33,492 nt of DNA from a virus: positions 1 to 33,492 of the IMG/VR virus record IMGVR_UViG_3300020601_000043. The stretch is one strand, 5' to 3'. The notes beneath the pieces are model-generated. The model was not told where the DNA came from. It saw nothing but the letters and a program-made list of their open reading frames with translations, and did not search any database. The translations under genes and the position numbers were made by a program. Shown here one piece after another: positions 6,533-16,701 of the stretch; the first letter of the stretch is position 1, and every line of letters begins with the position of its first letter.

Positions 6533-7253
6533 TATACCTAACAATTACATCAAAAGAAAAACATCAACTATTGACTTTGGCTACGAAGAAAGCGAAGTAA
6601 GTGGTTACCTTAAGCCTATAAAGGAGGAACTAGAGTTATTAAAAAAAGCAGAATATAAAGTTACACACGGAGAATCTACAAGAACAGTAGCTTCTTGGTT
6701 GTCTGAAAAAAGTAACAGATATATTAGTCATGTAGGTCTTTGGAAACATATGAAACATACTAGAGTAGCAAGTAAAAGATTTGAAGATGGTGAATGGTGG
6801 TATGTAGGTCAGGCAGACGGAAGACGTAGAGTGTCTTCTCACGTAGGGAAAAATGAAAGAAGAATGTTTGTTAATGGTAAATATGTACCACAGTCTCATC
6901 CACTTTATAAAGCAGGAAGATACAAAAGTTTTGATGATGCTGCGTTTAGTTCTTTACAGAATTACGAAACATCTACAGAAGGAGAAGTATATATCATAAC
7001 TAACCCTGCTTGGAAAGGCTGGATTAAAATTGGTATGGCTATTGATGCTGAGGACAGATGTAAAGGTTATCAAACATCTAGTCCACTTAGAGATTTTAAA
7101 TTAAAGTTTAAAAAATACTTTGATGATAGAAGAACTGCTGAACAAACAGCTCATACTTTATGTGCTAAGAAAGCAGAGAAACGTAAAGGCGAATGGTTTA
7201 AGTTAGACTTAAAGACAGCAAAAGAGATAATAAATAATATGGAGGTCGTTTAA
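6519..7253 (+). CDS. GIY-YIG / T5orf172-type endonuclease-like protein
   Basis: The 244-aa protein starts at GTG 6519, supported by GGGAGG upstream (6506-6511), inside the polymerase 3' end. The C-terminal half (about 154-240) fits the T5orf172/MUG113 branch of the GIY-YIG nucleases: VYII for the GIY strand, IKIG for YIG, an Arg in EDRCKGYQTSSP, and a Glu in RTAEQTAH. A GEWFKL ending is also typical. The N-terminal half (1-150) is basic and may bind DNA through a helix-turn-helix-like segment. It could nick host or competitor DNA, or be a free-standing homing endonuclease next to the polymerase gene. The TAA stop lies in GTTTAAAC (7248-7255). Confidence 0.75.
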   Translation: MKHINIPNNYIKRKTSTIDFGYEESEVSGYLKPIKEELELLKKAEYKVTHGESTRTVASWLSEKSNRYISHVGLWKHMKHTRVASKRFEDGEWWYVGQADGRRRVSSHVGKNERRMFVNGKYVPQSHPLYKAGRYKSFDDAAFSSLQNYETSTEGEVYIITNPAWKGWIKIGMAIDAEDRCKGYQTSSPLRDFKLKFKKYFDDRRTAEQTAHTLCAKKAEKRKGEWFKLDLKTAKEIINNMEVV

Positions 7254-7255
7254 AC

Positions 7256-8128
7256 ATGGCTAAATCAAAGAAAACCCTTGACACATTAGTCGAAGATATA
7301 TATAATAAGATAGGTGTACTTGCTGATGGTGAGCATATTGACCTAGATGAGGACACCATAGAACAGTTCGGTGAGTCTATGAAAGACATACTTTACAAGT
7401 GGTCTCACCCTGAACCAAGAGGTGATGCAACCTTACGCATGTCTAACATAGGCAGGAAGTCACGACAGTTATGGTTTGATATGAAGTCAGAAGGTACTCC
7501 TGAAAGGATGCCACCATCTTTATTCATTAAGTTTTTATATGGACATTTACTTGAAGAGATAGTTATATTTCTTATCAAGCTATCTGGACATACAGTTACT
7601 GATGAACAAAAAGAAATCAAAGTATCTGGAATCAAAGGACACATGGACTGTGTTATTGATGGGGAGGTTGTAGATATTAAGACTGCTTCTGGTTATGCGT
7701 TCAAGAAATTTAAAGACGGTACTCTTGCAGAAAATGACATGTTTGGATACATGGCTCAACTTGCTGGATATGAAGAAGCACAAGGCACAAACAAAGGTGG
7801 ATTCCTTGCTCTTAATAAAGAGTCTGGTGAGTTAGCTTTGTACAGACCTGATGAATTTGATAAGCCTAATATTAAAAGTAAAATAAAAAATATTAAAGCT
7901 GCTATTAAGCTAGATAATCCACCAAGTCTGTGTTATAATCCTATACCTGATGGTAAGTCTGGTAACATGCAACTTGCTAGAGAGTGTGTATACTGTAGGC
8001 ATAAGTTTGAATGTCATAAAGATTCTAATGAAGGTAAAGGTTTAAGAGTATTTAAATATTCTAACGGATTGAGATACTTAACTCAGACACCTAAGCCCCC
8101 TAAAGTTATTGAGGTAACACAAATATGA
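7256..8128 (+). CDS. PD-(D/E)XK exonuclease, Cas4/RecB-like with Cys cluster
   Basis: A 290-aa nuclease in the position of T7 gp6 exonuclease. The active site reads D131...D140-I-K142 (HMDCVIDGE-VVDIKT), the PD-(D/E)XK core, followed by a QxxxY-like MAQLAGY segment. C244, C247 and C253 have the C-x2-C-x5-C spacing of the AddB/Cas4 iron-sulfur site, and C226 is a fourth Cys nearby. The N-terminal motif MSNIGRKSRQLW (62-73) has Lys where Cas4-like proteins usually carry the first Cys. It would degrade host DNA to nucleotides and may help recombination. GGAGG lies 10 nt upstream. The next gene overlaps by ATGA. Confidence 0.85.
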   Translation: MAKSKKTLDTLVEDIYNKIGVLADGEHIDLDEDTIEQFGESMKDILYKWSHPEPRGDATLRMSNIGRKSRQLWFDMKSEGTPERMPPSLFIKFLYGHLLEEIVIFLIKLSGHTVTDEQKEIKVSGIKGHMDCVIDGEVVDIKTASGYAFKKFKDGTLAENDMFGYMAQLAGYEEAQGTNKGGFLALNKESGELALYRPDEFDKPNIKSKIKNIKAAIKLDNPPSLCYNPIPDGKSGNMQLARECVYCRHKFECHKDSNEGKGLRVFKYSNGLRYLTQTPKPPKVIEVTQI

Positions 8129-8803: not shown

Positions 8804-9059
8804 ATTTAACGAAAGAAGACATATAATTGAACTTAAAGAATATATTGACAATACTTACGGAGAACACTATGCTTCTGATAAGTATCAAGCAACAGATATT
8901 ATCATTGATTCAGGTCATGGCGAAGGTTTCTGTATCGGAAACATTATGAAGTATGCTAAACGCTATGGAAATAAAGAAGGAAAGAACAGAAAAGACTTGC
9001 TAAAAATCTTACACTATGGTATAATAATGCTTAACATTCACGACACAGAGAACTCATAA
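8793..9059 (+). CDS. DUF3310 protein, T7 gp1.7-like (possible nucleotide kinase)
   Basis: The 88-aa product shows the DUF3310 pattern: SDKYQATDII, then GFCIGNIMKYAKRYGNKEGKNRKDLLKILHYG. The GN-xxKY-xR-xxK-xxxxDLxK core is typical. The family includes T7 gp1.7, reported as a dGMP/dTMP kinase, so a role in dNTP supply is attractive next to the reductase operon. This is inferred from family membership. ATG 8793 has GGAG 5 nt upstream; ATGs at 8790 and 8778 are less well placed. Its stop overlaps the nrdA start as TAATG. Promoter-like P4 lies in its 3' end. Confidence 0.75.
   Translation: MEYKFNERRHIIELKEYIDNTYGEHYASDKYQATDIIIDSGHGEGFCIGNIMKYAKRYGNKEGKNRKDLLKILHYGIIMLNIHDTENS
8997..9025 (+). promoter_or_regulatory. 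candidate internal promoter P4 ahead of nrdA
   Basis: TTGCTA (8997-9002), a 17-bp spacer and TATAAT (9020-9025), with TG at 9017-9018. The -10 is consensus and extended; the -35 matches 4 of 6. It lies within the DUF3310 coding region and would start mRNA near 9032, 27 nt before nrdA. It could give the reductase genes extra expression. Chance occurrence in AT-rich coding DNA cannot be excluded. Confidence 0.4.
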
Positions 9060-10954
9060 TGGTAGAAGATAAAGTAGGAATAAAAGAATACTTAGGTATT
9101 AAAATTAATTACAGTAATGAAAAACTATTAGATAAGTTTAGTCTTGATACATTAAAAGACAGATACTTATGGGAGAATGAAACACATGCACAAGAAGCGT
9201 TTGCCCGTGCCTCGGTCTTCGGGGCAACCTACAAAGGTCACACGGATTTTGAATTGGCTCAAAGGCTTTATCACTACAGTTCCTCTTGTTGGTTCATGTT
9301 TAGCACTCCTATACTTAGTAACGGGGGAACAAGTCGTGGTCTTCCTATTAGCTGTTTCCTCAATTATGTACCTGATAGTCGCAGTGGTTTATCAGATCAT
9401 TATGACGAGAATATTTGGTTGGCATCTTCAGGTGGAGGTATTGGTGGATATTGGGGAAACATTAGGAGTAACGGTATTTCTACTACTCACGGTAGTAAGT
9501 CTACTGGTTCAATTCCTTTTATCCATGTAGTTGATTCACAGATGTTAGCCTTTAATCAAGGCACAACAAGACGTGGTTCTTATGCTGCATACATGGACAT
9601 ATCTCATCCAGAGATTGAAGAGTTTATTAACATGCGTAAAGAATCCGGTGGGGATATCAATCGTAAGAATCTTAATCTTCATAACGGTATCAACATTACC
9701 AATGAGTTTTTAAAAGCTGTTGAAGAAGATGCAGACTTTAGATTGATTGACCCTAAAACTAACGAGCCTACTAAGATTGTAAATGCTAGAGACTTATGGT
9801 GGCAGATCATCAACGCTAGAGCAGAGACTGGTGAGCCTTACATGGTCAACATAGATACATGTAACGAAGCTTTACCAAAAGAACAGAAAGATTTAGGATT
9901 AGAAATTAAACAGAGCAATCTTTGTTCTGAGATTACTTTACCTACTAACGAAGAGAGAACAGCAGTGTGTTGTTTATCTTCTGTAAACTTAGAATACTAT
10001 GATGAATGGTCAGAGAATCCAGTGTTCATAGATGATTTAATAACCATGCTTGACAACGTTCTTCAACATTATATTGATAACGCTGTTGACACAGATAACT
10101 TAGGAGAGTACAATGCAAACTTTAAAAGGTTTCAAAAACATATTAAAGAAGGTAAAGAAGGGTTTACTAAATCTGCCTACTCAGCTTATAGAGAAAGGTC
10201 ATTGGGTCTCGGTGCGATGGGCTTCCATTCGTATCTCCAATCACGCAACATTCCTTTTGAAGGTATCTTCGCTACGGGTTTCAATCATAAAGCGTTTAAA
10301 CATGTTAAGACACATGCAACCAAAGCTTCTGAAAGACTTGCAGATGAAAGGGGGGAAGCTCCTGATGTCAGTGGTAGTGGCAGGAGGAACGCTAATCTAC
10401 TCGCTGTTGCTCCTAACGCTAGTTCTAGTATCATATGTGGTGGTACTTCTCCTTCGATTGAGCCATATCGTGCTAACGTTTATACGCACAAGACTCTAAG
10501 TGGTTCGTTCCAAGTTAAGAACAAATACCTAGAAGAGGTATTACAAGACAAAGGACTAAAGAAAAATGAGTTGACTGCATTGTGGAAAGACATTGCAGGT
10601 AACGAAGGTTCAGTACAACATCTTGATATATTAACTGATGAAGAAAAAGAAGTATTTAAAACTGCTAATGAAATAGATCAGATATGGATTATAGAACATG
10701 CATCTAAACGTCAAGAGTTTATTTGTCAAGCACAATCCGTTAATCTTTTCTTTACACTTCCTAAAGCTACAGAGCCACAGGAAGTACATGATGAATACAT
10801 GCAGTACGTTAATGATGTACACTGGTATGGTATGAACAAACTAAAGTCTTTGTATTACTTTAGAACTAATGCTGCTAGAAATGCAGAAAATGTAAACGTT
10901 AAAGTTCAGCGTATTAAACTAGATGATGCTGAGTGTATAGCTTGTGAGGGTTGA
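9059..10954 (+). CDS. nrdA: class I ribonucleotide reductase large subunit, no ATP-cone
   Basis: This subunit reduces ribonucleotides to deoxyribonucleotides for phage DNA synthesis. Visible catalytic residues are C99 (LPISCFLNY), N287-x-C289-x-E291 (SNLCSE), C304 (AVCCLSS), the Tyr pair 599-600 (LKSLYYFRTN) that relays the radical, and the C-terminal C626-x2-C629 that passes electrons from thioredoxin or glutaredoxin. At 631 aa it is about 130 shorter than E. coli NrdA (761) because the N-terminal ATP-cone is absent. The enzyme should therefore escape dATP shut-off, fitting a lytic phage. The start overlaps the DUF3310 stop (TAATG). The beta subunit is encoded two small genes downstream. Confidence 0.95.
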   Translation: MVEDKVGIKEYLGIKINYSNEKLLDKFSLDTLKDRYLWENETHAQEAFARASVFGATYKGHTDFELAQRLYHYSSSCWFMFSTPILSNGGTSRGLPISCFLNYVPDSRSGLSDHYDENIWLASSGGGIGGYWGNIRSNGISTTHGSKSTGSIPFIHVVDSQMLAFNQGTTRRGSYAAYMDISHPEIEEFINMRKESGGDINRKNLNLHNGINITNEFLKAVEEDADFRLIDPKTNEPTKIVNARDLWWQIINARAETGEPYMVNIDTCNEALPKEQKDLGLEIKQSNLCSEITLPTNEERTAVCCLSSVNLEYYDEWSENPVFIDDLITMLDNVLQHYIDNAVDTDNLGEYNANFKRFQKHIKEGKEGFTKSAYSAYRERSLGLGAMGFHSYLQSRNIPFEGIFATGFNHKAFKHVKTHATKASERLADERGEAPDVSGSGRRNANLLAVAPNASSSIICGGTSPSIEPYRANVYTHKTLSGSFQVKNKYLEEVLQDKGLKKNELTALWKDIAGNEGSVQHLDILTDEEKEVFKTANEIDQIWIIEHASKRQEFICQAQSVNLFFTLPKATEPQEVHDEYMQYVNDVHWYGMNKLKSLYYFRTNAARNAENVNVKVQRIKLDDAECIACEG

Positions 10955-10955
10955 T

Positions 10956-11099
10956 ATGGATTGTTGGCACTGTGGAACACAATTAATATGGGGTGGAGAT
11001 CACGACATAGAAGATGAGAACGATGAGTACATTATGGAAACTAATTTAAGTTGCCCTAAATGTAACTCGGCTGTTATAGTTTATTTACCAAAAGATTAA
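10956..11099 (+). CDS. 47-aa zinc-ribbon protein between nrdA and nrdB
   Basis: It starts 1 nt after nrdA and ends 1 nt before the next ORF. Two Cys pairs (C3-x2-C6 in CWHC and C33-x2-C36 in CPKC) about 27 residues apart should hold one zinc. An acidic loop (DIEDENDEY) lies between them. From memory, near-identical mini zinc ribbons with a WHCG-LIWGGDHD opening occur in many marine and other phages without a known role. Placement in the reductase operon suggests a link to it, or simply co-expression. It could bind protein or nucleic acid. Confidence 0.8.
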   Translation: MDCWHCGTQLIWGGDHDIEDENDEYIMETNLSCPKCNSAVIVYLPKD

Positions 11100-11100
11100 T

Positions 11101-11280
11101 ATGAAACAATCAGAATTTGACAAGGTGTTTAGCCAAAAGTTTTCAGGCTTTACAAGTAGGATGTGGTTAGATTATTGTGATGAAAATAATAATCCATTCG
11201 CAAAAACAAAAGATTACGCAGGATATGTAATTGAAAATTTTAAATATTTAGTTAAGAGATTTAACGAGGAGAACATATGA
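11101..11280 (+). CDS. 59-aa hypothetical protein upstream of nrdB
   Basis: The ATG follows the zinc-ribbon stop by 1 nt, and the stop overlaps the nrdB start as ATGA (11277-11280), so it should be co-translated with nrdB. The protein is helical and charged, with several aromatic residues (about five Phe, three Tyr, one Trp) and one Cys. It has no membrane segment. Function unknown. Confidence 0.65.
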   Translation: MKQSEFDKVFSQKFSGFTSRMWLDYCDENNNPFAKTKDYAGYVIENFKYLVKRFNEENI

Positions 11281-12260
11281 GCTTATTAGACACAAGAGAT
11301 TATTACAAACCATTCGATAACCCTTGGATGTTTGACTACTATGTCTTACAAAACCAAATGCACTGGATGCCGGAGTCAGTACCTTTACACACCGATGTAA
11401 AAGATTGGCAAGAGTTAGACCCCAAAGAAAAGAACTTACTAACACAAATCTTTAGATTGTTTACTCAATCAGATGTAGATGTTGGTGCAGGTTACGTTGA
11501 TAGATACATGCGTATCTTTAGAAAGCCTGAAGCTAGAATGATGATGGGGTCGTTTGCTAACATGGAGTCTATTCATCAACATGCTTACAGCTTACTACTT
11601 GATACAGTTGGTATGCCTGAGATAGAGTACAAAGCTTTTTCAGAGTACGAAGAAATGGCTGACAAACACGAGTACGTTCATAACATCAAGACCATCAAGA
11701 AAGATAAGAAGAGTATTGCAAAAACTTTAGCAGTCTATTCAGCTTTTACAGAAGGACTACAATTGTTTAGTAGCTTTGCAATCTTGTTAAACTTTCCAAG
11801 GTTCGGCAAGATGAAAGGTATGGGACAGATAGTTACTTACTCTATACGGGATGAGTCTATGCACGTTGAAGCTATGACTAAACTCTTTAGAGAATTTATC
11901 CAAGAAAACATAGAGATATGGACAGATGATTTTAAAGCAGAACTCTACGAGATTTGTAGACAGATGGTAACACTAGAAGATAAGTTCTTAGACCTAGTGT
12001 TTGATATGGGAGACCTTGAAGGTCTTACCAAGAAAGATATGTATGCTTACAATAGATACATAGCTGATAGAAGATTGCTACAGCTTGGTCTTAAAACAAA
12101 CTATGACCAACGTGAGAATCCTCTAGGGTGGTTAGATGAAGTGATGGGTGTTGAACACCAGAACTTTTTTGAAGGTCGTGCAACTTCTTATATGAAGGCA
12201 GGACTAAGAGGTAGACAGGATAAGATAACCTTTGCAAACTTGGAGAGTGATAATGGTTAA
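11277..12260 (+). CDS. nrdB: class I ribonucleotide reductase small (radical) subunit
   Basis: The 327-aa beta subunit carries the dimetal site and radical. Ligands can be read as D66 or D68 (TQSDVDVG), E97 and H100 (ANMESIHQHAY), E159 (AFTEGLQL), E193 and H196 (RDESMHVE). Tyr104 has the spacing of E. coli Tyr122 (E-x2-H-x3-Y), so a tyrosyl radical is expected. GAGGAG lies 5 nt before the ATG. It pairs with the large subunit encoded upstream. Subclass (Ia or Ib, Fe or Mn) cannot be settled by eye; no nrdI or nrdH is in the window. Confidence 0.95.
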   Translation: MSLLDTRDYYKPFDNPWMFDYYVLQNQMHWMPESVPLHTDVKDWQELDPKEKNLLTQIFRLFTQSDVDVGAGYVDRYMRIFRKPEARMMMGSFANMESIHQHAYSLLLDTVGMPEIEYKAFSEYEEMADKHEYVHNIKTIKKDKKSIAKTLAVYSAFTEGLQLFSSFAILLNFPRFGKMKGMGQIVTYSIRDESMHVEAMTKLFREFIQENIEIWTDDFKAELYEICRQMVTLEDKFLDLVFDMGDLEGLTKKDMYAYNRYIADRRLLQLGLKTNYDQRENPLGWLDEVMGVEHQNFFEGRATSYMKAGLRGRQDKITFANLESDNG

Positions 12261-12849: not shown

Positions 12850-14814
12850 CTATAATTTTGGTTGTAGTTCTCTCATTTCCATCAAAGTTTCTAAACTCTG
12901 ACCTGCCATTTGATAAAAGCCTTCGATGTTATCTGACAACATATTGTTGGCATAGATATCTGTAGACTCGTACCATGTTTCTTGGTCGGGCAATGTCACT
13001 AACCTATAGTTATTAAAGTTAGGAACAAATCCCATGTAAGCTATGATAGTATTCTCTGACCCATACTCACCCGTCTCTTCTTGTTTAGCTTCGACATCAT
13101 CTTGTGCATCTTGTAAGTTCTGAGCTATAACATTAGCTACAGTTTGTTCAGCTTCTGTGGCTGATGTATCTGTAGAGACTGACACATCTATTTGACTTTG
13201 TAAACTTTGAGTAGTGGTTGTATCAACTGCAACACTGACTGTCTCAACTGTCTCAGTTTCAACACTTGTAGAGCTTGTAACACTAGCACTCATATCTAAT
13301 ACTTGATTGTTTTGTGCAGTAGAAGATGCAAATTGTTCTGATATACTAGGTGAATTACTAGTACTTACACCACCACCAGAACTAGACGATGATACGCTAG
13401 AAGCTCCTGTCGTTCCACCTGTAGCGTGTATAGAGTTTCCTGATGTAGTCCCACTAACACTAGACTTAGCTGTGCTTAGAGTAGAGGAGACAACACGTAA
13501 CGCTGTTTCTTTACTTATTGAACTCTTTTCTTCTGGTAGTACAGCACCAACAACAACCTCTTCTTCTATTATTTCTTCTATAACTTCTTCTTCTTCAATG
13601 AGTTCTTCAATAAGTTCTTCTTCCGGCTCTTCTGCATACGCAAGTTCTTCTTCCACAGTTGTCTCTTCCTCAAACCACTCCTCCCTTTCTGCAATAAATG
13701 TTTCTTGAAATACAAACTCTTCAACCATTAAATTTTCAACCGGTAGAAAAACTTCTTCTTCAGGCAGAACTTCAAAAGGTTCTACAACTTCTTCATATTG
13801 TTGTACAGGTTCAAAAGATTCTGGTTCGTCAAAAACAAATTCAGGTTCTTCAAAAGTATCATACTCAGGTTCAAAGATATACTCTTCAAATATTTCTGGC
13901 TCTTCATAAGTGTCATACATATCATACTCTTCTTCGTAACCATAATCAAATTGTTCTTCTTGATAGCCATAATCCATTGTATCTTCTTCAAAGTATGCAA
14001 CAGATTCTTCTTGTCTATAGCCTTGACAGAAGGGTCCATACTGTGGGTCAAGGTCACACTGTTGGTCATCATAAGCTTCCCAATATCCGGGACAACTTAC
14101 ATCGTTTAACGCATTGCTACAATCTATAGAGGGTCCAACGAAAATAGACCCACCATTTTCTAAGGTTTGATTTTCACCTATATCATTCCAGTCTTGATTA
14201 ACACAAGTGGTTGAATTAATAACTCCTGTATTACATTCATCGTGAAAATAATAAGGTTCAAACTCATCTTCTTTACCCTGCACTCCTATGAATACATCGT
14301 GGTTTTGAATATCTAACTGACCATAGATAGCTTCATAAGTATTATTAGGATACAACCAAAGCTCAAAAGTATTTTTAGAATCTCTATAGTATTCCCACAT
14401 TTCATACCAACCAAAAATAACTTTATCATCAAAACTTTTGGCTAACATAGAAGAGTTTTGACCCATAATAAGGTCAGTCCAAAAAGGATACATTGTATAG
14501 TTGGTGTTAGGGGATGGGCTAGGATTGTATTGCGTACAGTTCTTTCCCCATGTGTTAGCTGTTGATAATGAGCCTAAGATTAAACAACCATTACTAGCCA
14601 TGTAAGCACTGTTAAAAGTTTCACCAAAGAAAGTAAAATCAAAACCTAGATTAAAGCTTTGTGATGTGCCATCATCACTGGCTGACATATCAGTGGCGTT
14701 ATCTAAACGTAAATCCCAGAGTTGGTTATTAGATGTAACTGTAGTAGTTACTTGACTAAAAAGACTAACGCTTAAAAGACACGCTACTGCGTAGCATAAA
14801 ATTCTTTTCTGCAT
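12850..14814 (-). CDS. exported nidogen-like protein with Glu/Tyr-rich and Ser/Thr-rich tracts (654 aa)
   Basis: A signal peptide (basic QKR, then a hydrophobic core to about residue 20) is followed by a beta-rich domain (about 28-235) with GFDFTFFGETFNSAYMASNG and YPFWTDL segments, like extracellular nidogen-type domains. It contains several Cys that may form disulfides. Residues about 268-428 are a Glu/Tyr/Phe-rich, highly acidic low-complexity tract. Residues about 430-570 are Ser/Thr-rich, and a short globular tail ends the protein. It overlaps the upstream exported gene by 31 nt. It is probably placed in the periplasm or on the cell surface late in infection. It could block re-infection, alter the envelope or sit in the virion; none is shown. 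Confidence 0.7.
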   Translation of the reverse strand: MQKRILCYAVACLLSVSLFSQVTTTVTSNNQLWDLRLDNATDMSASDDGTSQSFNLGFDFTFFGETFNSAYMASNGCLILGSLSTANTWGKNCTQYNPSPSPNTNYTMYPFWTDLIMGQNSSMLAKSFDDKVIFGWYEMWEYYRDSKNTFELWLYPNNTYEAIYGQLDIQNHDVFIGVQGKEDEFEPYYFHDECNTGVINSTTCVNQDWNDIGENQTLENGGSIFVGPSIDCSNALNDVSCPGYWEAYDDQQCDLDPQYGPFCQGYRQEESVAYFEEDTMDYGYQEEQFDYGYEEEYDMYDTYEEPEIFEEYIFEPEYDTFEEPEFVFDEPESFEPVQQYEEVVEPFEVLPEEEVFLPVENLMVEEFVFQETFIAEREEWFEEETTVEEELAYAEEPEEELIEELIEEEEVIEEIIEEEVVVGAVLPEEKSSISKETALRVVSSTLSTAKSSVSGTTSGNSIHATGGTTGASSVSSSSSGGGVSTSNSPSISEQFASSTAQNNQVLDMSASVTSSTSVETETVETVSVAVDTTTTQSLQSQIDVSVSTDTSATEAEQTVANVIAQNLQDAQDDVEAKQEETGEYGSENTIIAYMGFVPNFNNYRLVTLPDQETWYESTDIYANNMLSDNIEGFYQMAGQSLETLMEMRELQPKL

Positions 14815-15863
14815 TGCCTTGTAGTTTTAGTTTTTTTTGTGTAAGTTTTTTTAACTAAACCTACCACATCTTTATTGATTTTATCTCTGTTAGGATTTTT
14901 ATCGTTTTTGCATTGCTGTATAAAAAGTTTCTCTTGTTCTTTAGCATCAGGTCTTTTTGATTTATTTTCTGCCCAAGCTTTGGTAGCTTCCTTACCTATC
15001 TGACCTTGATAAGGGCAAGGCGTACCAGCCATTTCCATAGCCTTAAATACTCTCGGGTCTTGACAAAGTATAGAAACTGAAGCGACTTTCATGCCGGTAT
15101 CGTATAGATACTTGGAAAGTTTTAAGCGTTCACAGTTCTCGTCAGTCACAGTACTACCTGTGGACAGACCAAATACTTGCCCTTGAAAAGCACCAGAACG
15201 ACCTACAGTACAGAGGTCTTGGGAGTAAGACATAATACTAGGTGCAATAGCAGAAGCAGGGGGTGCTTTGCTACGTACATTCTGATTAATTGTTTGGGTA
15301 GAGTTAGACTCGTTAATATTTCTGTTAGTGTTATCAGACTTAGTATTGTTATTATTGGTATTAGTATTATCAGTGGTAACATTAGAATCTGATGTAGATT
15401 TATTAATGTTTGTATTGTTATTGGTATTGGTATTGTTACTAATAGAATTACTGTTGTTATTGACGTTCTGATTTACAGTAGAGTTTACAGTAGAGTTAGA
15501 TGTAGACGTAGAAGTATTAACGTTGTTATTATTGTTTGTATTTGTCGAGGTGTTATTTGATGTCGAGGTATTTACGTTAGTATTATTTGACGTATTAACA
15601 TTAGTATTATTATTAGTGTTAGTATTTATATTTGTATTGTTATTAGTATTAGTATTTGTATTAGTGTTAGTATTTGTATTATTGTTGGTATTGGTATTAG
15701 TCGTTACTGTAGTATTAATGGTAGTTAAACCATTGTCTTCACAATACTGTGTACCGGCTGTACAATCACCAACTGGGTCTGCTTGTACCCCAAACGAAAA
15801 CGTTAGTAATCCTAATATAAATAACGGTCCCAATAAATCTTGGTTTAGCCCTCTCCTTGTCAT
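14784..15863 (-). CDS. exported Asn/Thr-repeat protein with Cys-rich C-terminal domain (359 aa)
   Basis: A clear signal peptide (TRRG..., hydrophobic 11-25, cleavage after VQA at about 28) leads into a short piece with two Cys (GDC, YC). About 150 residues follow of almost pure Asn/Thr/Ser repeat (roughly 48-200). The C-terminal domain (201-359) has six Cys (in QDLC, ENC, ILCQDPR, TPCPYQG, QQC, RQC) and a basic end. From memory, the APPASAIAPS...SYSQDLCTVG block recurs in marine phage proteins next to lysis genes. AAAGGAG precedes the ATG. Cys-rich plus low complexity suggests an exported structural or envelope-acting protein; function unknown. Confidence 0.75.
   Translation of the reverse strand: MTRRGLNQDLLGPLFILGLLTFSFGVQADPVGDCTAGTQYCEDNGLTTINTTVTTNTNTNNNTNTNTNTNTNTNNNTNINTNTNNNTNVNTSNNTNVNTSTSNNTSTNTNNNNNVNTSTSTSNSTVNSTVNQNVNNNSNSISNNTNTNNNTNINKSTSDSNVTTDNTNTNNNNTKSDNTNRNINESNSTQTINQNVRSKAPPASAIAPSIMSYSQDLCTVGRSGAFQGQVFGLSTGSTVTDENCERLKLSKYLYDTGMKVASVSILCQDPRVFKAMEMAGTPCPYQGQIGKEATKAWAENKSKRPDAKEQEKLFIQQCKNDKNPNRDKINKDVVGLVKKTYTKKTKTTRQCRKEFYATQ
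15290..15725 (-). repeat. Asn/Thr codon repeat tract
   Basis: A low-complexity tract built of imperfect AAT/AAC and ACT/ACA codons, read on the - strand, encoding (T-N)n and N-N-N-T-N units with scattered S, V and I. Repeat units vary at the third base, so the tract is old or under selection for protein sequence rather than a recent slippage product. Such tracts expand and contract easily. Confidence 0.8.
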
Positions 15864-15865
15864 TT

Positions 15866-16258
15866 TTATTTAGCTCCTTTTGTAAAGTCTCCTTTAGACT
15901 TAGATGAATTTGTATAGAGACCAAACCAAGCTGCTCCTGCCCCTACGACTACCGATATTAACCCTGATTGTTGCATGGTAGGGTCTTCTAATCCCATGAA
16001 CCAAAATGTGGTATAGTATAATAAATACATGTACACACTTAAAAAAGCACGAGGTATAATTCTCCAGCTATCTACAGCTTGAGCAACAAAGATAAGTTTT
16101 TGATAAGGGTTATCGTTCTTTTCATCTTCTAACTCTCTTATCCTATCTTTTAGTTCTGACTTCTCTTGTAGCAAAGCCATGAATTTATTAAGGTCTATTT
16201 CAACCTCATTCCTATCCATATCTCCACTGAAACCACTCATGCCCATGTTGTTATTCAT
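15866..16258 (-). CDS. two-TM membrane protein, holin candidate (130 aa)
   Basis: The N-terminus (1-50) is charged and coiled-coil-like. Two hydrophobic helices follow: about 69-91 (FLSVYMYLLYYTTFWFMG) and about 98-117 (GLISVVVGAGAAWFGLY, Gly/Ala-rich). A short basic tail (KSKGDFTKGAK) ends it. Two helices, small size and a place three genes after lysozyme fit a holin, which would pierce the inner membrane and time lysis. GAGGG precedes the ATG. The 143-aa neighbour is an alternative holin. Confidence 0.5.
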   Translation of the reverse strand: MNNNMGMSGFSGDMDRNEVEIDLNKFMALLQEKSELKDRIRELEDEKNDNPYQKLIFVAQAVDSWRIIPRAFLSVYMYLLYYTTFWFMGLEDPTMQQSGLISVVVGAGAAWFGLYTNSSKSKGDFTKGAK

Positions 16259-16269
16259 TTTGCCCTCTT

Positions 16270-16701
16270 TTATTTTTTAACTAAACTACCACCAAAATAC
16301 ATGCCTATAATAGCTGATACTAAGTTGGTATCTAGTTGCGTAATTACCAAGCCTTGGAAAGTTATCCACTGAAAGACTTCTCTACCATCAGTAAAGAATA
16401 AAAAGCCCGGTTGAAATAATGTATAGCCTACTGTCACATCGACATCTGGATAATATACTGCTACGAGTTTAGGTAGTATAACGATTGCAAAGATTGCAGA
16501 CAAAGCAATGATACGTCTTGTCCATTGAAAGCCTTTATCTTGTACGTTCCTTGCAGACTCTACAGCTTTGAGTTGAAACTCGCCCCTTGTAATCAACATC
16601 TTCTGCTCATCTTGTTTAGCCTTCATACGTTGAGACCATAGACTTAACACACTACTAAGAAGTGTTGAGCCAAGCATTGTTATAATTTCAAAAGGGAACA
16701 T
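16270..16701 (-). CDS. multi-TM membrane protein, holin-like candidate (143 aa)
   Basis: There are three hydrophobic segments: about 1-22 (FPFEIITMLGSTLLSSVLSLW), about 64-84 (IIALSAIFAIVILPKLVAVYY) and about 117-140. A basic, helical stretch with KAKQDEQK lies between the first two. Size and placement between lysozyme and the two-TM protein suggest a lysis function such as holin or antiholin. The weak GGAT-like ribosome site may keep expression low, as for timing proteins. No family confirmed. Confidence 0.5.
   Translation of the reverse strand: MFPFEIITMLGSTLLSSVLSLWSQRMKAKQDEQKMLITRGEFQLKAVESARNVQDKGFQWTRRIIALSAIFAIVILPKLVAVYYPDVDVTVGYTLFQPGFLFFTDGREVFQWITFQGLVITQLDTNLVSAIIGMYFGGSLVKK

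Follow-up and report, generated by a model that had tools for sequence, protein, structure and literature searches.

A three-gene module of SAR11, roseobacter and freshwater phages as a candidate for the outer-membrane step of lysis

Introduction

The closest described counterparts of the locus analyzed here are the two-component spanins (Rz/Rz1 and, in T4, PseT.3/PseT.2), which pair an i-spanin, with a single N-terminal membrane segment and a periplasmic coiled coil, with an o-spanin, an outer-membrane lipoprotein bearing a lipobox. In T7, the Rz/Rz1 spanins are encoded between the holin and TerL. Disulfides recur among spanins (PMC6139136). SAR11 phages are among the commonest viruses of the sea, and the way in which they breach the outer membrane is unclear, given that the genomes examined here yielded no classical spanin. 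A second group of exported phage proteins, the CsgGF of pelagimyophages and of Melnitz (phages of SAR11 and OM43), has been proposed to have a role in the timing of lysis (PMC9004378).

The genes considered here, A, B and C, lie on the IMG/VR virus record IMGVR_UViG_3300020601_000043 (hereafter the window, meaning the whole stretch of 33,492 bp that was analyzed; GC 36%). Its plus strand carries early genes (primase/helicase, DNA polymerase and ribonucleotide reductase) and its minus strand the late genes (tail fibre, virion proteins and lysozyme), and the module is transcribed A first, then B, then C (Table 1). The large and small subunits of the ribonucleotide reductase occupy positions 9059-12260 (+), with the small subunit gene directly facing the end of C. 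The genes of the module had been annotated separately, as hypothetical proteins, as a 'carbohydrate-binding' protein and as what is likely a mis-annotated 'lysozyme', and no description of the module was found in the open-licence literature on pelagiphages. A matches phrog_20531, for which, as for related pelagiphage hypotheticals, the sources covered record neither a function nor a link to B or C. In metaviromic islands no identifiable gene is commoner than the annotated B family, which lies beside tail fibres there and has been listed as a likely receptor-binding protein for host recognition by the virion (PMC3909814). Here we propose, with a probability of roughly 0.4, that A-B-C forms a late-made, envelope-bridging complex acting at the outer-membrane step of lysis, spanin-like in its action. 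The module offers a concrete and testable candidate for outer-membrane opening.

Table 1. Features of the module and of the adjoining lysis genes, in order of transcription (positions in the window).
Feature	Position	Strand	Basis
Endolysin, phage lysozyme	16939..17505	-	PF00959 E 7.5e-8; phrog_7 endolysin E 4e-17
Putative holin, 3-TM, GTA_holin-like in position and size	16270..16701	-	phrog_38283
Small membrane protein adjoining A	15866..16258	-	phrog_10198; near A in many window-type relatives
Gene A, predicted exported Asn/Thr-repeat protein with conserved 4-Cys domain, 359 aa	14784..15863	-	ORF; phrog_20531 E 8e-14
A, predicted signal peptide, cleavage after VQA (residue 28)	15780..15863	-	Sequence and signal-peptide rule
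A, N-terminal cysteine pair C34/C41 (CTAGTQYC)	15741..15764	-	Co-occurrence with C318/C351
A, Asn/Thr/Ser repeat, variable-length linker	15255..15722	-	Composition; short tandem arrays in DNA
A, conserved 4-Cys domain, C218/C244/C267/C283, C-x25-C-x22-C-x15-C	14967..15251	-	Alignment of relatives, AF2
A, charged tail with clade-specific C318/C351	14787..14966	-	Alignment
A end/B start overlap, 31 nt	14784..14814	.	Coordinates
Gene B, predicted exported protein, 654 aa	12850..14814	-	Between A and C in relatives
B, N-terminal beta-rich domain, exchanged among close relatives	13975..14751	-	AF2; identity to L019
B, Glu-rich stalk, then Ser/Thr-rich stretch, predicted disordered	13150..13968	-	AF2 pLDDT mostly <50; sequence
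B, C-terminal region, conserved WY....IY......DN motif	12853..13149	-	Alignment of divergent B C-termini
Gene C, N-terminal membrane segment, coiled coil and C-terminal NPLAG, 122 aa	12472..12840	-	Alignment

Results and Discussion

Gene A and its conserved cysteine domain

The predicted signal peptide of A (MTRRGLNQDLLGPLFILGLLTFSFGVQA, followed by DPVG) precedes a stretch in which 64 Asn, 38 Thr and 18 Ser make up most of the 143 positions between residues 53 and 195. The reading frame, the composition and a signal-peptide rule thus agree with a preliminary description of A as an exported protein joining a signal peptide to a Cys-rich part through an Asn/Thr repeat. The rule is a strict home-made heuristic and not SignalP, and the export of A and B is accordingly a prediction; it fires on 85 of 101 A and 52 of 66 B proteins, against 91 of 752 other genes.

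Relatives of A were gathered by tblastn from pelagiphages and roseophages and then from IMG/VR (at least 592 matching stretches). They bear out the claims that the Cys-rich head is conserved in proteins of other phages and that it is better conserved than the repeat, median identities over 1046 pairs being 79.6% and 47.5%, respectively. The variation in repeat length that had been proposed as a check is considerable, with linkers of 14-498 residues in the relatives and a constant cysteine spacing. The head had been taken for a six-Cys domain, and its conservation stands, but the mature protein holds eight cysteines (34, 41, 218, 244, 267, 283, 318 and 351), the invariant core comprises four, and C318 and C351 are clade-specific. 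The spacing of the core is exact in 265 of the 268 A proteins among the matches listed, and the other three carry a 6-residue insertion.

The outer cysteines behave as linked pairs: 34/41 and 318/351 are both present in 80 relatives and both absent from 130, the tail pair occurs alone in five, and three further exceptions are proteins cut off at a contig end. This linkage may reflect an N-to-C closure, making the repeat a loop and not a stalk, or shared ancestry alone. Within the core, the third and fourth cysteines are both replaced by Ala in four relatives (L359, L360, L362 and L364), a joint loss that would imply a C3-C4 disulfide and hence a C1-C2 disulfide, even though the four cases may be a single evolutionary event.

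The AF2 model of A consists of a beta hairpin and helices (pLDDT 78.6, pTM 0.60), with pLDDT >90 across most of residues 250-320. Foldseek returned no match to this model in the PDB with E <1.5, and its structural neighbours in BFVD are uncharacterised phage proteins. Searches of Pfam, NCBIfam, PADLOC and PDB sequences yielded no usable family for either A or B, and the anti-phage defence models of PADLOC gave no hit to A or B of the window and weak coiled-coil or low-complexity matches to C and one relative.

Gene B and its readings at the cell surface and in the virion

The AF2 model of B shows pLDDT values of about 80-94 over much of residues 31-80 and 101-190, lower toward residue 280. Comparison of this model with the PDB by Foldseek returned nothing significant, calreticulin-like noise being the only output (E 0.02, prob 0.08), and we therefore claim no lectin or nidogen-like identity. 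The N-terminal domain is 51% identical to that of the relative L019, against 96% for the C-terminus, and hence it appears to be exchangeable on an otherwise similar protein. Roseophage B proteins are short and all-helical and lack the variable N-terminal domain, which must consequently be optional.

The exchangeable domain brings up a real rival to the lysis reading, surface exclusion or receptor masking, whereby the module would act as a surface or periplasmic shield on the infected cell that masks or occupies receptors against other phages, or against adsorption of the progeny to debris, the variable domain of B tracking the receptor. The prevalence of the B family in metaviromic islands (PMC3909814) fits this picture, as do the tail-fibre and fibre-assembly genes that are frequent neighbours of the module, and the A domain of Achromobacter phages lies away from the lysis genes, the phiAxp-2 copy standing beside another exported repeat protein. 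We nevertheless consider a shield less likely than a role in lysis. Surface display had also been suggested for A, but nothing in A-B-C resembles a passage through the outer membrane, and the module encodes no export route across it; an inner-membrane coiled-coil partner (C) is obligatory, and the variable domain is dispensable in roseophages. Moreover, among pairs whose A domains are at least 90% alike, the median identities are 70% for the B N-terminal domain, 70% for the B C-terminus and 75% for C, so that the N-terminal domain is not the more variable part.

The carbohydrate-binding annotation and the nearby tail fibres would also suit a component of the virion, namely a receptor-binding protein, as the metaviromic-island study took the B family to be. 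This is highly improbable: A and B each have a predicted cleavable Sec signal, whereas tail parts assemble in the cytoplasm and a receptor-binding protein of the tail would be a virion protein devoid of an export signal, and C is a membrane protein. The predicted export signal of B conflicts with the host-recognition reading (PMC3909814) and calls into question the receptor-binding interpretation of a highly variable marine phage gene family.

Gene C

A strict 18-residue hydropathy cut-off calls the membrane segment in 45 of 66 C proteins. Their C-terminal end is nearly invariant: among C proteins found independently of A, 239/240 terminate in NPLx0-5 and, conversely, 74 of the 75 open reading frames that terminate in NPLx0-7, out of 1273 tiled ORFs, match the C model. 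C also matches phrog_739 (Rz-like spanin), albeit weakly (E 1.8e-5) and as one among many coiled-coil matches, and its kinship to Rz families does not extend beyond coiled-coil similarity. The correlations of pairwise identities revealed a coupling between the C-terminus of B and C no greater than that among neighbouring genes. In HTVC115P the best match to C (gp49; MN698247.1, 31233-31661) lies four genes past B, and another membrane coiled-coil gene, gp52, directly follows B, possibly through duplication or insertion.

Linkage and spread of the module

A C-type gene lies downstream of A in all of the 73 loci analyzed, 67 of them by a strict rule and six by inspection. The latter are L079 and L105, with longer tails past NPL, L008, with an unannotated ORF, the roseophage loci L010 and L011, with C annotated as 'lysozyme', and L012, with a C ending in NPMQ. 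The L008 ORF (podovirus ctXG6705; 7203-7610, +) ends in MNPLSK. The 'lysozyme' label on CRP-207 gp73 (L010:3292-3873) and CRP-810 gp51 (L011:7162-7584) is likely a mis-annotation, both products having the membrane segment, coiled coil and NPL end of C. In the reverse direction, A precedes C in 142 of the 143 loci that could be tested (those with enough upstream sequence, from three divergent groups of the 240 C proteins), with a long ORF between them in 136. A C profile matches 20/20 module-bearing phage records and 0/2 Achromobacter phages.

These samples include close relatives, and the counts do not equate to independent events. A stronger argument than raw linkage is the spread of the module over T7-like (S28-C10), T4-like (Mosig) and other phage types (HTVC033P, HTVC202P and the roseophages), with SAR11, roseobacters and freshwater bacteria as hosts; as judged from sequence, the module moves among these unrelated phages. 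Within this phage group A and B are inherited together and each appears to be exported, as the preliminary description had anticipated, and its refuting outcome, independent occurrence of the two genes or export of neither, was not encountered. The picture of a closed two-part system does not hold, given that C is also obligatory and that the A domain occurs elsewhere without B or C. The 31-nt overlap of A with the gene then called the previous one is real, yet B is transcribed after A and the overlap is not general, the A/B junction of other phages being a 14-nt or 1-nt overlap or a gap.

Lysis context and comparison with spanins

An endolysin or holin lies within -2.5/+4.5 kb of the module in 14 of 28 non-redundant loci, a raw count without a matched control, and no recognised endolysin or holin is near it in the other half. 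Twelve of the 14 have an endolysin, of four unrelated types (lysozyme, GH19, amidase and M15), and two more a 3-TM holin, and in 14/14 these neighbours are on the strand of the module. The seeds for the endolysin tally leave out the two roseophage 'lysozymes' that are gene C. In Mosig, the gene at the position matching the holin of the window scores above the gathering threshold for PF11351 (GTA_holin_3TM). The T7-like S28-C10 has the order tail fibre, holin, A, B, C and TerL, its module occupying the place of the T7 spanins. Of the functions initially suggested for the exported genes, late lysis or particle release is thus the one that gene context favours.

The likeness to two-component spanins extends to the predicted topology of C, which has the single N-terminal membrane segment and periplasmic coiled coil of an i-spanin together with a conserved C-terminal end, to exported partners that are adjacent or overlapping and contain cysteines, and, in about half of the non-redundant loci, to a late position close to a holin or endolysin. 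The differences are equally clear. The module has no lipoprotein, has two exported partners instead of one, both of them large (160-965 aa), and brings in a beta-rich domain as well as a conserved Cys domain. PF03245 (Rz) was above cut-off in none of the 22 genomes tested and in none of the 20 that bear the module, and a scan of the window, S28-C10, Baldr and HTVC202P for lipobox proteins yielded no credible candidate. A functional lipobox was detected in neither the A nor the B family, the five pattern matches falling within the hydrophobic stretch of a normal signal peptide. A and B thus lack the hallmark of an o-spanin and any known outer-membrane anchor, and A-B-C fails the spanin class on the lipobox. 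A unimolecular spanin was also considered and rejected, for want of a lipobox and with a C-terminal hydrophobic segment in just four of 101 A proteins. The T7-like layout recurs in HTVC011P, a phage that lacks both the module and a lipobox spanin, which indicates that some SAR11 phages lyse without either.

Sequence comparison shows co-inheritance, a constant gene order, conserved motifs and a lysis-gene context in about half of the non-redundant loci. That a coiled-coil protein of the inner membrane, ending in a conserved tail, is linked among the late genes to two exported partners argues for an envelope-spanning complex whose formation, docking and disruption of membranes we infer. On the predicted export and topology of the three proteins, C would be anchored in the inner membrane, its coiled coil lying in the periplasm and its NPL tail acting as a docking peptide, and A and B would be sent to the periplasm. 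The disulfide-stapled domain of A and the C-terminus of B might then bind one another and/or the tail of C, with the repeat of A and the stalk of B serving as flexible spacers and the N-terminal domain of B as a changeable binder of the surface, glycan or protein, on the side of the outer membrane. After opening of the wall by the endolysin, the complex could collapse or draw the membranes together.

More tentatively, A-B-C might represent a new class of three-protein machine that disrupts or spans the envelope and takes the place of spanins in phages infecting SAR11, roseobacters and many freshwater bacteria. Such a machine would combine a disulfide domain that has no solved-structure match and also occurs in exported repeat proteins of bacteria, an NPL docking tail that hardly varies, and a swappable domain facing the glycans that was earlier taken for a virion receptor-binding protein.

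Relatives outside the module

Without B or C, the A domain was detected in about 2% of the sampled genomes of Pseudomonadota (8 of 397, of which one is a phage contig) and in the Achromobacter phages phiAxp-2, JWAlpha and JWDelta; in phiAxp-2 and JWDelta it is distant from the lysis genes. In Variovorax, Burkholderia and Novosphingobium a homologous Cys domain follows a signal peptide and a low-complexity S/N/T-rich stretch, as in A, but these are chromosomal or megaplasmid genes, with no B or C seen alongside and in some cases with Pro/Ala-rich or OmpA C-terminal extensions. Found in both bacteria and phages, the A domain is therefore a common envelope building block, coupled to B and C only in the marine and freshwater phage group.

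These relatives suggest that A might be a bacterial exported repeat protein captured by phages, which would stiffen or modify the periplasm or wall, or make cells sticky. Several of the bacterial proteins (L121, L122 and L124) adjoin other exported repeat proteins, and that of a Novosphingobium humi plasmid (L110:11608-12726) is fused to an OmpA peptidoglycan-binding domain. Among T4-like pelagiphages, HTVC008M (KC465899) has CsgG without A and Mosig (MT647606) has A without CsgG, a contrast of two genomes that would be compatible with functional replacement (n=2). Such a role in envelope remodelling or adhesion is improbable in our view, as the bacterial relatives have no known function and it leaves the fixed late-gene position unexplained. 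Phage CsgGF resembles the module in consisting of exported phage proteins but has no homology to it. A curli-type secretion route was rejected as well, PF03783 (CsgG) matching none of 15 A-bearing genomes but giving hits in the control genomes.

Finally, A, accompanied by B and C on contigs of sufficient length, was also observed in metagenome-assembled genomes of implausible hosts, among others Trichodesmium (L094), Woesearchaeota (L098) and Euryarchaeota (L102), which are probably wrongly binned phage contigs.
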